DNA from: Streptomyces sp. ISL-11
Lineage (GTDB): Bacteria > Actinomycetota > Actinomycetes > Streptomycetales > Streptomycetaceae
DNA: 64,000 nt
Direction: 5' to 3'
Assembly: GCF_018614525.1 (NCBI RefSeq)
Contig: NZ_JAGGOL010000027.1
Span: forward strand, 1-64,000
Every line of letters starts with the position of its first letter. Within the stretch, counting starts at the first letter, position 1. The notes beneath the pieces are model-generated. The model had not been told where the DNA came from, did no database searches, and saw only the letters and a list, made by a program, of their open reading frames with translations. A program made the position numbers and the translations under genes. Below are positions 35,966 to 54,828 of the stretch, one piece after another.

Positions 35966-36493
35966 TCACTCCGCCAGGCGGTGTCCCCCCAGGCGGTGTC
36001 CCGCCCTGCGGTAGAGGACCAGAGGCTCCCCGTCGTCCGTGGCTCCGGCGGACACCACGGCGCCGACCAGCAGCGTGTGGTCCAGCAGCGGCACCGTGTG
36101 CGTCACGTCGCACACCACGCTCGCCACCGCCTCCGCCAGCACCGGCGCGCCGTGCCTCGGACCGAAGTCGACGCCGTCGAACCGGTGCGCCGCCCCGGCC
36201 GTCGCGAACTGCTCGACCAGGTGGCCCAGATGGGCCGGCAGGACGTTGACGGCGAACGTGCCCGCCGCGACGATCCGCCGCAGGGTGCCGCTGCCGCTGT
36301 TCAGGGAGACCGCCATGCTCGGCGGCCGGTCCGTCAGCGACACGACGGCCGTCGCGGTGCAGCCGGCCGGGCCGTCCTCGTCGTAGGCGGTCACCACGGT
36401 CACACAGGCGGGAAACCGCGTCATGACCTCCCGGAAGTCGTCCCGGGACACGCCGCGGCGCTCGGCGACCGCCGTCGGCAGATGCGCTGACAT
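35966..36493 (-). CDS. Flavin reductase (FMN/FAD-type, two-component monooxygenase reductase)
   Basis: A 175-residue flavin reductase-like protein: DFREVMTRFPACVTVVTAYD opens the domain, then GCTATAVVSLTDRPPSMAVS, AGTFAVNVLPAHLGHLVEQF, and HTLLVGAVVSAG. It should supply reduced flavin to a partner. No flavin monooxygenase is seen in the window, so the partner may be one of the acyl-CoA dehydrogenase-like proteins (some act as monooxygenases) or lie elsewhere. Last gene of the 17-gene operon. The start at 36493 follows AGAGGGAA. Confidence 0.82.
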   Translation of the reverse strand: MSAHLPTAVAERRGVSRDDFREVMTRFPACVTVVTAYDEDGPAGCTATAVVSLTDRPPSMAVSLNSGSGTLRRIVAAGTFAVNVLPAHLGHLVEQFATAGAAHRFDGVDFGPRHGAPVLAEAVASVVCDVTHTVPLLDHTLLVGAVVSAGATDDGEPLVLYRRAGHRLGGHRLAE

Positions 36494-36516
36494 GCTGTTC
36501 CCTCTCCGAATGACGG

Positions 36517-38067
36517 TCACGGGGTACGGACGGAGCCGGACCGGGCGGACACGAGGACCCTCCGCAGGGCGCGGCGGTCGACCTTTCCGTTGGCGTTGAG
36601 CGGGAGCGCCTCCAGGAGCGTGACCGAGGCGGGGACCATGTAGGCGGGCAGCCGGTCGCGCAGGGCCGCGAGGAGTACGGACGGTTCGGTGCCGCTCCCG
36701 GTACAGGCGGCCTCCAGCGTGTGCCCGCCGTCCGGGCTCTCGACCGCCACCACGACCGCGTCCAGCACGCCGGCCTGGTCGCGCAACGCGGCCTCGATCT
36801 CGCCCGGTTCGACGCGGTAGCCGCGCACCTTGACCTGGTGGTCGAGCCGCCCGAGGTGGACCAGGCCCGCCTCTCCGGCGCGCACGCGGTCGCCCGTGCG
36901 GTACCAGAGCGCCTCGTCCGGGAGCTCCGCCGCGCCGGCCGGGTGCGCCCGGCCGTTCTCGTAGCGCAGGAACCGGCCCTCGTTGTCGCGCGGGTCGAGG
37001 TAGCCGGGGAACCGCTGCACCCCCCGCACGCACAGCTCCCCCTCCTCGGCGGCCGCTCCGTCCTCGCCCACGACGAGCTGTTCCAGGCCGGGGTGCAGCT
37101 CCCCGATGGGGACGGTGCCGTTGGCCGGCTCCCACCACGCCGAGCGGTCGGCGGGCAGCCGGTACTGGGCGCAGCTGAGGGTGAGTTCGGTGGGCCCGTA
37201 GAGGTTCTCCAGGACGCTGCCGGGTGCCGCCGCGCGCCAGGCGTCGGCCTGGGCGACGGTCAGGGGCTCGCCGCAGAACAGGCTCCAGCGCAGGGTCGGC
37301 ATGCCGCCGGCGGGCAGTCCGCGCAGGCGGGCCGCCAGGGAGATCACCGACGGGACGGAGAACCAGTGGGTGATCCGCTCACGGCTGACGAACCGGGCGG
37401 GGGCCATGAGGTCGGCGCGGCCGGGGACGACGAGGGTGGCGCCCGAGCCCCAGGTGGCGAAGAGGTCGAAGACCGACAGGTCGAAGGTGAGGTCGAAGGT
37501 CTGCGAGACCCGGGAGCCGGTGCCGAGTTCGTACCGGTCGATGACGTGGTCGAGGTAGGCGGAGACGTTGCGGTGGGTGACGGGCACGCCCTTGGGGGTG
37601 CCGGTGGAGCCGGAGGTGAAGAGGATGTAGGCGGGGTCGGTGGTGCGCGGCCGGTGGACCGGCGGGGCCTCGGCGGGTGGGGTCCTGGCGTCCGCGGCCA
37701 GGACCGGCACGGACAGGCCGGCGTCCGCGAGGTCCGGCTGGGCCAGGACCAGACCGACGCCGGCCGCGGCGGCGATGGCGGCGTTGCGCCCGTCGGGGAA
37801 CGCCGGGTTCAGCGGTACGACGACGGCGCCCAGCCGCTGGACGGCGAGGTAGCCGGCGTACGCGGTGGCCGTGCGCGCGGCCAGCAGGCCCACGCGCCCC
37901 GGTGCGGCCCCGCCGGTGGCCTCGGCCAGCCGCCCGGCCAGCCGCCCGGACAGGTCCTCCAGTTCGGCGTAGGTGAAGGACCGGCCGTCCACTTCCAGGG
38001 CCGTGGCGGCCGGACGCAGCAGGGCCGACCGGGCGAACCACTCGTACAGCGTGCGGTCAGGCGACAT
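36517..38067 (-). CDS. Free-standing NRPS adenylation domain
   Basis: A 516-residue amino-acid-activating enzyme that loads a separate carrier protein. The core motifs are FTSGSTGTPKG (residues 150-160), NLYGPTE, YRTGDRV and NANGKVDRRALR with the catalytic lysine. The residue pair FDLSVFDLF keeps the Asp that contacts the substrate amino group, so an alpha-amino acid is expected. The specificity code read by eye is DLFSLCLLSK, with no confident assignment. It overlaps the end of the BtrH-like gene by 11 bases and is 24 bases from the flavin reductase. Confidence 0.85.
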   Translation of the reverse strand: MSPDRTLYEWFARSALLRPAATALEVDGRSFTYAELEDLSGRLAGRLAEATGGAAPGRVGLLAARTATAYAGYLAVQRLGAVVVPLNPAFPDGRNAAIAAAAGVGLVLAQPDLADAGLSVPVLAADARTPPAEAPPVHRPRTTDPAYILFTSGSTGTPKGVPVTHRNVSAYLDHVIDRYELGTGSRVSQTFDLTFDLSVFDLFATWGSGATLVVPGRADLMAPARFVSRERITHWFSVPSVISLAARLRGLPAGGMPTLRWSLFCGEPLTVAQADAWRAAAPGSVLENLYGPTELTLSCAQYRLPADRSAWWEPANGTVPIGELHPGLEQLVVGEDGAAAEEGELCVRGVQRFPGYLDPRDNEGRFLRYENGRAHPAGAAELPDEALWYRTGDRVRAGEAGLVHLGRLDHQVKVRGYRVEPGEIEAALRDQAGVLDAVVVAVESPDGGHTLEAACTGSGTEPSVLLAALRDRLPAYMVPASVTLLEALPLNANGKVDRRALRRVLVSARSGSVRTP

Positions 38068-54300: not shown

Positions 54301-54500
54301 GACAGGTCGAACTCGGTGCGCAGGGTGGGCTGGACGCGCAGCAGGCGGTCGAGCGCGGTCCGCAGCCGGCCGGCCTCCACGACGGTGTCGAAGACGACGC
54401 GGAAGCCGATGTTGTAGAGGTCCTTGCGGTCCACCGCCTCCTGGAGGAACAGGAGGTTGCGCTGCGAGGGGGTCACGGGCAGTTCTTGGCGGTACTCCAC
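51339..54500 (-). CDS. Single-module NRPS (C-A-PCP)
   Basis: A 1053-residue synthetase with one module. Condensation domain about residues 5-440 with the catalytic HHAISDG (137-143). Adenylation domain about 460-955 with FTSGSTGRPKG (601-611), NLYGPTE, YRTGDL and NGKVDR (941-946). Carrier domain about 970-1045 with Ser1005 in LGGNSFDVLKL. No thioesterase, epimerase or methylase. The A-domain code read by eye is DVQYCSLAVK, whose DVQ start resembles proline codes. A GTG at 54500 follows a GAGGAG site. A separate thioesterase is at 32916. Confidence 0.93.
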   Translation of the reverse strand: MEYRQELPVTPSQRNLLFLQEAVDRKDLYNIGFRVVFDTVVEAGRLRTALDRLLRVQPTLRTEFDLSSGTPRAVITEPAGAPLEIVGHTAGDGDWEPWLEARSREFATEPVDLRQAPLCRFRLLLGEKRSALLCNVHHAISDGVSMEVLLDELCEGYRDADSGAGAVAERERWLKAELAAQCAASEAAVEAGAVRDLAAALADVAPTTLHPLPGRPADTGFRGGILRVLLPTEERARLERTARQLSRTPYCILLAAYAVLLGDYSGNPDVVVGSPFSARRTIASHQLCGFFVNTLPVVLPAVDRPFDEHLAAVSERVREAKRYQSVPFDALVTELAPERSSNRNPVFQCMFAMQDGLRTRRELAPGVGARVEFVHNATSKFDLWLGATPVDDGLELELEYDADLLPASYAERFLAEYRQLLSGALTTPSATTRELLGALDTRERPVLRQGGGADGRAEGGLLGMVLAAARRTPDAVAVTEPGSPGLSYAQLLERAARGAAGLHARGVRRGDTVGLVPDSLPDTVTAMLAILWCGAAYLPIDPALPADRLSYMLATAGSPFLISARPVVPDEPPRAAIGDLEAAGGARLPEPAGTDPVYVMFTSGSTGRPKGVRMGQAALINLLRWQTDALAMGPDTRFLQFAPLGFDVSYQEIFPTLAVGGTVHGLGATDRRDLDRVTALVDEAALTHVYLPVAVLGAFAASALDAGRGLAALRFLCVSGEQLHLDSRAERFLARAEGCRAVNLYGPTETHAVTYQVLPGGDHERPAHVPIGRPLTGVDAYLLGPDGHPVPPGAVGELYLGGVCTADGYVGDEERTAAAFLPVPGDTTGTDRMYRTGDLAVLAEDDTLIFLGRRDAQVKVRGHRVELGEIETAAERLPAVAAAAAAVRGAGEQAALCLFVRAAEGAAPAEGELRAALERTLPTYMIPRHIVTVESVPLTPNGKVDRPALLRRFEAGEFTALAAGGPATTWEPTGTEREVRKLWGELLDREPAGPEDSFFALGGNSFDVLKLVTALERTTGLRVPVGVFFQRPTVRALAAHIDEETATREGPAL

Positions 54501-54552
54501 TCTTCTTCTCTCTCCTCACCGTCCGCCGGACGGGTCGCTCGGGCCGGTGGTG

Positions 54553-54828
54553 TCAGGACGCGGCGTGCCAGCGGGCGACGAACGCGCGCAGGTCCGCGAC
54601 GGTGATCACCTCGGCGAGGCCCTGAGGATCGATCTCCTGGGTGGGGTCGAGCGCGAGGTCGGCGATGACGCGCAGCAGCAGGAGCGAGTCGACGCCCAGC
54701 GCGGCCAGTTCGGTCGCGTCGGTGAACGGCTCCGGGCCGGTCCGCCGCCGGAGGGCGGCCGTTACGCGCTCGGCGAGGGCTCCGTCCGCCGGACGGTGTT
54801 CCTGCGGTCGGGGCGGCGATGCTGTCAT
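54553..54828 (-). CDS. Free carrier protein, first gene of the main operon
   Basis: A 91-residue acyl/peptidyl carrier with Ser48 in LGVDSLLLLRVIAD. It is the promoter-proximal gene, 52 bases ahead of the NRPS, and probably delivers the starter to the condensation domain. The ribosome site AAGGG lies 14 bases from ATG 54828. Preceded by the 11-bp direct repeats thought to bind the SARP activator. Confidence 0.9.
   Translation of the reverse strand: MTASPPRPQEHRPADGALAERVTAALRRRTGPEPFTDATELAALGVDSLLLLRVIADLALDPTQEIDPQGLAEVITVADLRAFVARWHAAS

Follow-up and report, generated by a model that had tools for sequence, protein, structure and literature searches.

In L-alanosine an N-hydroxy-N-nitroso group is carried on the β-nitrogen of diaminopropionate, and in the azicemicins an aziridine ring derives from aspartate; to our knowledge, the route by which the azicemicin-type aziridine is formed is still open. 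A synthetic route to aziridine-2-carbonyl compounds uses an N-O bond with an acyl leaving group together with an α-proton beside a thioester. The azicemicins are aziridine-bearing type II polyketides from a Kibdelosporangium (PMC4384478). For azinomycin, the sections of PMC12559475 and PMC9570651 on AziU3/U2 describe it as an aziridine synthase that acts by sulfate displacement. In the vicenistatin pathway, according to the relevant section of PMC11284099, VinN puts 3-methylaspartate on an acyl carrier protein (ACP), VinO decarboxylates it, and VinM caps the β-amine with Ala, Ser or Gly. In this work we analyzed a stretch of 64,000 nucleotides from Streptomyces sp. ISL-11 (contig NZ_JAGGOL010000027.1, from here on the window), which carries on its minus strand an operon of 17 genes, from 54828 down to 35966. 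As judged from sequence, the core of this operon has a recognisable chemistry, that is, β-amino-acid handling of the VinN/VinO/VinM type combined with an AlaD-type oxygenase. Our tentative reading, to which we give somewhat less than even chances, is that the operon builds an unusual cyclic amino acid by way of an aspartate-derived aziridine formed on carriers, its coupling to serine by TrpB2, reduction by ProA and loading by a nonribosomal peptide synthetase (NRPS) into a small peptide. The product is likely a small peptide of no described kind.

The window is G+C-rich and its host genome (G000) comprises 6.67 Mb in 219 contigs. Genes were called with a codon-usage gene caller trained on the window, and families were assigned by Pfam and NCBIfam profile scans. 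The 16 junctions of the operon include 12 overlaps of 4-11 bases and 4 gaps (7, 8, 23 and 52 bases), in agreement with the original prediction of a 17-gene minus-strand operon of mostly overlapping genes between 35966 and 54828; the gene families named there were also recovered with Pfam/NCBIfam, except for the pair of BtrH-like proteins, which have no profile match above cut-off. Given that the gene order is largely kept in other genomes, this arrangement is more than chance. There are five carrier domains, namely three free ACPs, the thiolation (T) domain of the NRPS and the C-terminus of the protein encoded at 44980-46101. Starting from the 54828 end, the genes are the following:

54553..54828, minus strand: ACP3, free carrier protein (PP-binding 22.8 bits, cut-off 20.8)
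51339..54500, minus strand: NRPS module with condensation (C), adenylation (A) and T domains (Pfam; A code by motif alignment)
49828..51330, minus strand: A1, free adenylation enzyme (Pfam/NCBIfam; code by motif alignment)
49076..49831, minus strand: short-chain dehydrogenase/reductase (SDR) (adh_short_C2, 175 bits)
47779..49068, minus strand: ProA-like paralogue of γ-glutamyl-phosphate reductase (NF001221; Cys kept)
47435..47782, minus strand: ACP2, free carrier protein, AmcB-like though under the AmcB cut-off (Pfam/NCBIfam)
46098..47438, minus strand: TrpB2, with Gly at the TrpB catalytic Glu position (NF009057 above cut-off)
44980..46101, minus strand: BtrH-ACP, a BtrH/AziU3-like domain with a C-terminal ACP (predicted fold, weak BtrH_N match, invariant C13/H110/D125)
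43482..44990, minus strand: Lig, VinN-like amino-acid:ACP ligase (PDB matches 3wvn and 3wv4; motifs FDVGLY and GLTECKR)
42215..43489, minus strand: DCase, BtrK/VinO-like (LysA/BtrK-type) pyridoxal-phosphate (PLP) decarboxylase (top two PDB matches are BtrK entries)
41931..42221, minus strand: ACP1, free carrier protein (PP-binding, 46 bits)
40741..41934, minus strand: ACADb, AlaD-like flavin oxygenase, predicted β-amine N-hydroxylase (identity to AlaD; predicted fold)
39612..40748, minus strand: ACADa, acyl-ACP-dehydrogenase-like (ACAD profiles; TERLAS Glu kept)
38974..39615, minus strand: phosphopantetheinyl transferase (PPTase) (ACPS, 35 bits)
38057..38977, minus strand: BtrHa, second BtrH-like protein by motif only (invariant C9/H106/D122)
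36517..38067, minus strand: A2, free adenylation enzyme (PDB match 6akd)
35966..36493, minus strand: flavin reductase (Flavin_Reduct, 116 bits)

Orthologues of ACP3 also stand first in the operon of those relatives that bear the NRPS.

Like the vicenistatin system (VinN, VinO, VinM, VinL), the operon has a VinN-like ligase and a free ACP, and probably counterparts of the PLP decarboxylase and of the VinM/IdnL7-like adenylation enzyme; in contrast, it adds two proteins of the acyl-CoA dehydrogenase (ACAD) fold, two BtrH-like proteins, TrpB2 and ProA, and it is without polyketide synthase (PKS) and without glutamate mutase. Neither the transacylase VinK nor a modular PKS was found among the 30 window proteins scanned. 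The best PDB matches of Lig are 3wvn (399 bits), which we take to be VinN, and 3wv4 (307 bits), and its TECKR motif is conserved. The best two matches of DCase are BtrK entries (205 bits), and this enzyme likely acts on a carrier-bound amino acid; that of A2 is 6akd (328 bits), presumably IdnL7, an enzyme of the VinM type. When compared with what we take to be the gene list of the butirosin pathway (BtrH, BtrI, BtrK), a BtrK-like decarboxylase, BtrH-like proteins, carrier proteins and a flavin reductase are in common, whereas the operon has an AMP ligase in place of the ATP-grasp enzyme BtrJ, includes in addition an ACAD-fold oxygenase, TrpB2 and ProA, and has no aminoglycoside genes. Seven of 48 ligases read GQTEAKR, and six of these seven loci contain mutase genes (the exception is L081, in our numbering of loci); no mutase was seen in the loci of the other 41, all reading GxTECKR, the window included. 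Since the window ligase falls in the GxTECKR class and has no glutamate mutase beside it, it probably takes aspartate, giving β-alanyl-ACP. L014 and L017, the nearest relatives of the window locus, do have glutamate mutase, unlike the window, and therefore the acid varies while the remainder of the operon is kept.

The relationship that bears on the next reaction is that of ACADb, which is 65% identical over 386 residues to AlaD P0212 of Streptomyces alanosinicus; AlaD (68%) is also the sole specific gene name among the best 120 of 848 matches of the ACADb orthologue in genome G380. ACADb has no Glu in the motif RDLRSAxLNYSND, which we take for the MCAD-type Glu position. The top matches of its predicted fold are TdsC and DszC, two flavin mononucleotide (FMN)-dependent monooxygenases, and KijD3 is within the top 30. 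A match to AlaD at E 1e-120 was found in 36 of 392 genomes of the genus of the window, and the four nearest (76-90%) were compared. The AlaD-like gene of G591 is accompanied by SbnA and SbnB, both above cut-off, and by an A domain, an SsuE-type FMN reductase and NasC/NirB-like proteins below cut-off; SbnA and SbnB homologues (>55%) are present at the loci in G080 and G023, the profile check being confined to G591, and no SbnA/SbnB homologue was seen in the stretch examined of G567. These four loci are without ACADa, A2 and BtrH. Conversely, no SbnA/SbnB or NasC/NirB-like gene is among the 17 of the operon, where the SbnA model matches only TrpB2 (26 bits, cut-off 350). Besides the relation of ACADb to AlaD, the operon and the L-alanosine cluster likely have in common carrier-bound β-amine chemistry and an FMN reductase. 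Given that a carrier-bound β-amine would be the substrate feature common to AlaD and ACADb, ACADb likely N-hydroxylates such an amine, and the flavin reductase encoded at 35966-36493 likely supplies it with reduced flavin. ACADa keeps the Glu of the motif TERLAS, presumably the IVD-type base, in 46 of 46 copies; its best NCBIfam matches include MbtN and RedW, dehydrogenases of carrier-bound substrates, far under cut-off.

For BtrH-ACP and BtrHa, no Pfam match above cut-off was obtained. BtrH-ACP matches BtrH_N weakly (15.8 bits, cut-off 29.7; E 0.017), as do 4 of 16 orthologues (best E 0.0097), and its C-terminus is ACP-like in the predicted fold and reaches 20.5 bits with PP-binding, just below the cut-off of 20.8. 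The residues C13, H110 and D125 are invariant in all 16 BtrH-ACP proteins. In BtrHa the residues C9, H106 and D122 are invariant in 11 of 11 proteins; this motif is the sole basis of its assignment, and a BtrHa profile gave no match in PDB. An alignment of BtrH-ACP against 5.8 billion proteins returned only carrier-protein or phosphopantetheine-binding labels among the best 120 of 338 matches. When the predicted fold of the N-terminal domain of BtrH-ACP was searched with Foldseek, the first matches were AziU3/U2. The predicted fold is common to this domain, AziU3/U2, CtaG and CcbD at 7-20% identity; in contrast to these, BtrH-ACP has a fused ACP and the C-H-D set, and no sulfotransferase was seen.

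The other half of the operon includes TrpB2, ProA and the NRPS. TrpB2 is matched above cut-off by NF009057/PRK12391 (492 bits, cut-off 366) and below it by TIGR01415 (409 bits, cut-off 519). Its motif is VTGTGAGQ, to be compared with ETGAGQ, and the Glu is present in 4qys, 6hul, 5ey5 and 4neg; in contrast, Gly stands at this catalytic position in all 29 copies of TrpB2, that is, the window and 28 others of at least 60% identity. A search in 120 relatives listed 20 further TrpB2 places, three of which (G059, G060 and G066) are the operon copies already counted as L016, L042 and L044, all with Gly. Among the remaining 17 there are 13 with Glu, 2 with Gly, 1 with Ala and 1 with Asp, and since those with Gly or Ala are the nearest in sequence (47-52%), this change marks a subclade. 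The TrpB2 proteins of L088, L106, L107, L156, L157 and L172, which are less closely related, also have Gly or Ala in place of Glu and make up a wider set of altered TrpB2 enzymes; the first three adjoin core-like genes.

ProA normally yields an aldehyde that closes on the α-amine of the same amino acid. The ProA of the operon is matched by NF001221 (350 bits, cut-off 289) and by TIGR00407 under its own cut-off (292 bits, cut-off 317), the active-site Cys is kept in 11 of 11 proteins, and the identity to the other ProA of the same genome is only 38%. A separate TrpB-like gene is also present in that genome. The motif-anchored code of the NRPS A domain, DVQYCSLAVK, is identical in 10 of 10 rows, which are 9 distinct loci given that the L040 row is the same locus as L017; with this identical code, the orthologues (42-62% identical) appear to load the same residue. 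We take the code to resemble those for Pro or pipecolate. The code of A1 is DAELVGTVTK, and it differs in L014 and L017 (DAMGFGGIAK).

The mix of genes had been described as unfamiliar, but it is not rare. Copies of the operon occur in Streptomyces, Saccharothrix and Amycolatopsis. Its core, made up of BtrH-ACP, an ACP, two ACAD-fold flavoenzymes, an A domain and usually the ligase and decarboxylase, also lies close to genes for type II PKS, type I PKS, NRPS and ATP-grasp proteins. When named genomes were scanned, 15 loci were obtained, from Streptomyces, Saccharothrix, Amycolatopsis and Micromonospora, 10 of them with TrpB2 and ProA in an order largely as in the window. Of 390 genomes in the family to which the Saccharothrix locus belongs, 57 have ACADb with E 1e-50 or better. 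From 40 annotated ACADb places and the earlier loci we compiled a table of 50 core loci, after joining two extension loci to L014 and L017 and discarding two flank loci; those with no passing ACADb, e.g. L019, L026, L083, L095, L106 and L107, were dropped before the count. Since these loci were selected for ACADb (at least 55% identity, 70% coverage), the core counts are biased upward and describe the selected set only: ACP1 is present in 49, BtrH-ACP in 48, ACADa in 46, A2 in 42, PPTase in 35, BtrHa in 33 and the flavin reductase in 18. Several loci are cut at their ends and some are closely related (e.g. L116-L120). Lig and DCase occur together in 42 of the 50 and never one alone. TrpB2 and ProA are both present in 28, always with ACP2 (28 of 28), and neither was found singly at the thresholds used (60% identity for TrpB2, 50% for ProA); two further loci of this form lie beyond the table. 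With a lower threshold the pairing would be broken by L088, where a TrpB2-like protein (50%) stands in a stretch without ProA, and L106 and L107 (TrpB2-like, 48-49%, with Ala; ProA 50-52%) would agree with it. No paper describing the gene set of the operon was found in open-licence PMC.

Some of these loci have features of their own. A 444-aa protein with no Pfam match, encoded next to an aminotransferase gene at L025:6603-7937, has orthologues and is present in 7 of the 50 loci; Lig and DCase were seen in none of the 7, and L044 pairs this protein with TrpB2 and ProA. At L026 a BtrH-ACP gene stands alone, with no other core genes recognised within 21 kb. The genome of the window has a second core block on contig C137 (L003, L004), with a BtrH-ACP copy, A2, BtrHa, PPTase, ACADa, ACADb, ACP1, ACP2 and a second ligase and decarboxylase. 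As in vicenistatin, this block also has glutamate mutase and type I PKS, and it includes in addition a protein similar to ketosynthase III and deoxysugar genes; it probably makes a glycosylated polyketide with a 3-methylaspartate-derived starter.

In three genomes the core lies 2-14 kb from a ketosynthase (KS)-α gene, recognised by motif. One is G380, the only one of them checked with Pfam, which has two ketosynthase-type proteins, an ACP, two flavin adenine dinucleotide hydroxylases, methyltransferases and a free acyltransferase; the other two match Kibdelosporangium persicum and Labedaea rhizosphaerae. The type II PKS clusters with the core may make azicemicins. They have the same ligase class and the same order as the window (BtrH-ACP, Lig, DCase, ACP1, ACADb, ACADa, PPTase, BtrHa, A2). 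In contrast, the window has TrpB2, ProA, ACP2, SDR and NRPS instead of the type II PKS, and no ketosynthase was found among its 30 scanned proteins.

From the identities of these genes we infer the reactions, the aziridine, the order of the steps and the product as follows. Lig would load aspartate by its side-chain carboxyl on ACP1 and DCase would take off the α-carboxyl to give β-alanyl-ACP, because they are homologues of VinN and of BtrK/VinO, with the substrate class read from sequence. ACADb, a homologue of AlaD, would hydroxylate the β-amine together with the flavin reductase. A2, as an enzyme of presumed VinM/IdnL7 type, would turn the N-OH into a leaving group by attaching a small aminoacyl group to it. 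ACADa, which could be the base for ring closure, would remove the α-proton so that the α-carbon attacks the nitrogen, giving aziridine-2-carbonyl-ACP, and transfer or release of acyl groups would fall to the BtrH-type proteins. TrpB2, lacking the Glu that activates indole, would form the aminoacrylate from serine and join it to the nitrogen of the aziridine. ProA would reduce the ACP2 thioester to an aldehyde, whose closure on the α-amine would give a pipecolate-like imine, six-membered because TrpB2 would add the three carbons of serine to the ACP2-bound nitrogen; SDR would reduce this imine. Finally, the cyclic amino acid would be loaded by the NRPS A domain and linked by the C domain to an A1-derived residue on ACP3. 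The more specific proposal that a shared, hitherto undescribed actinobacterial module turns aspartate into aziridine-2-carbonyl-ACP by N-hydroxylation and nitrogen-carbon ring closure, from which TrpB2 and ProA make a fused aziridine-piperazine amino acid as a new electrophilic unit for a peptide antibiotic, is doubtful. Several observations limit the aziridine route. VinN carries marks of both ligase classes (WDFGLY, GQTECKR), which weakens the aspartate assignment, and acyl-CoA dehydrogenases come close behind TdsC and DszC in the fold search with ACADb, so that the fold is not decisive. Against the aziridine itself, CtaG and CcbD are as near in fold to the BtrH domain, which folds equally like acyl-transfer enzymes, and the C-H-D residues are retained in the BtrH proteins.

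The same evidence for N-hydroxylation, the AlaD relation of ACADb, would serve a route in which ACADa takes N-hydroxy-β-alanyl-ACP to the oxime level, closure through oxygen gives an isoxazolin-5-one, and TrpB2 couples its nitrogen to serine to form β-(isoxazolinonyl)alanine-type amino acids. ACADa with its Glu and its matches to MbtN and RedW, well below cut-off, would suit this oxidation, and in legumes PLP enzymes are known to join isoxazolinone with a serine derivative. However, such a route would not need ACP2, ProA or a thioester, it leaves A2 without a role and does not account for the occurrence of this core beside PKS genes of types I and II, and we regard it as unlikely. The natural reaction of ProA, from an activated γ-glutamyl group to pyrroline-5-carboxylate, and the presumably Pro-like NRPS code would fit the possibility that ACADa and ACADb desaturate an N-protected β-alanyl-ACP to an enamide, the α-carbon of which TrpB2 would couple as an indole-like nucleophile to give a γ-acyl-glutamate and, after ProA, a 4-substituted pyrroline-5-carboxylate. 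N-protection of the VinM type is known, as described in the relevant section of PMC11284099. Nonetheless, ACADb is AlaD-like and without the ACAD Glu, and in L014 and L017, which have TrpB2 and ProA, the mutase points to an acid derived from 3-methylaspartate, whose α-carbon would become quaternary; this possibility is quite improbable.

A vicenistatin-like pathway that merely installs β-alanine, in which TrpB2 and ProA are duplicates of primary enzymes dedicated either to Trp and Pro supply or to resistance against the product, would fit the VinN/VinO/VinM-like genes and the presence of a separate ProA and TrpB-like gene in the genome. Against it, the catalytic Glu of TrpB is replaced in all close copies, neither TrpA nor ProB is among the 17 genes, the low identity between the two ProA proteins stands, and TrpB2 and ProA are paired across loci; we consider it very unlikely. 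The operon would make a puzzling ring-forming reaction testable, and the analysis points to a recurring set of enzymes that could form the azicemicin-type aziridine, each with a step that can be assayed. The TrpB2-ProA-ACP2 set, with the natural Glu-to-Gly change in TrpB2, suggests that a TrpB has evolved in nature to take a carrier-bound nucleophile other than indole, something that enzyme engineers could use. Given that the family is widespread and that its products were not found in the literature searched, it is a practical handle for mining genomes for reactive small peptides.

The limits 35966-54828 hold for the operon itself; as limits of the cluster they are probably too narrow, considering the following genes downstream and upstream:

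33738..35036, minus strand: major facilitator superfamily (MFS) exporter (51-67% orthologues adjoin TrpB2-type operons)
32916..33731, minus strand: type II thioesterase (52% orthologue adjoins the L017 operon)
55677..56954, minus strand: ATP-grasp-like protein (matches >50% searched in 15 genomes)
57271..58527, minus strand: ATP-grasp L-amino-acid ligase (LAL_C2, ATP-grasp)

The exporter and the thioesterase likely belong to the cluster. Across 15 genomes searched, the protein of 55677-56954 has no matches above 50% other than fused ATP-grasp proteins that adjoin the core in two strains (54% identity), and for this reason the region 55026-64000, with the upstream ATP-grasp genes, may form a second operon belonging to this cluster. 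The genes of this region, all on the minus strand, encode LysE, the ATP-grasp-like protein, the ATP-grasp ligase, a TauD/GntD-like oxygenase, a carbamoyltransferase and a haem-oxygenase-like diiron protein; the gene for the latter (61920-63806) continues beyond the window and on the contig is called as 723 aa, to ~64091. The window also has two tRNA-Ser genes, at 1674-1761 (GGA) and 28272-28359 (CGA).

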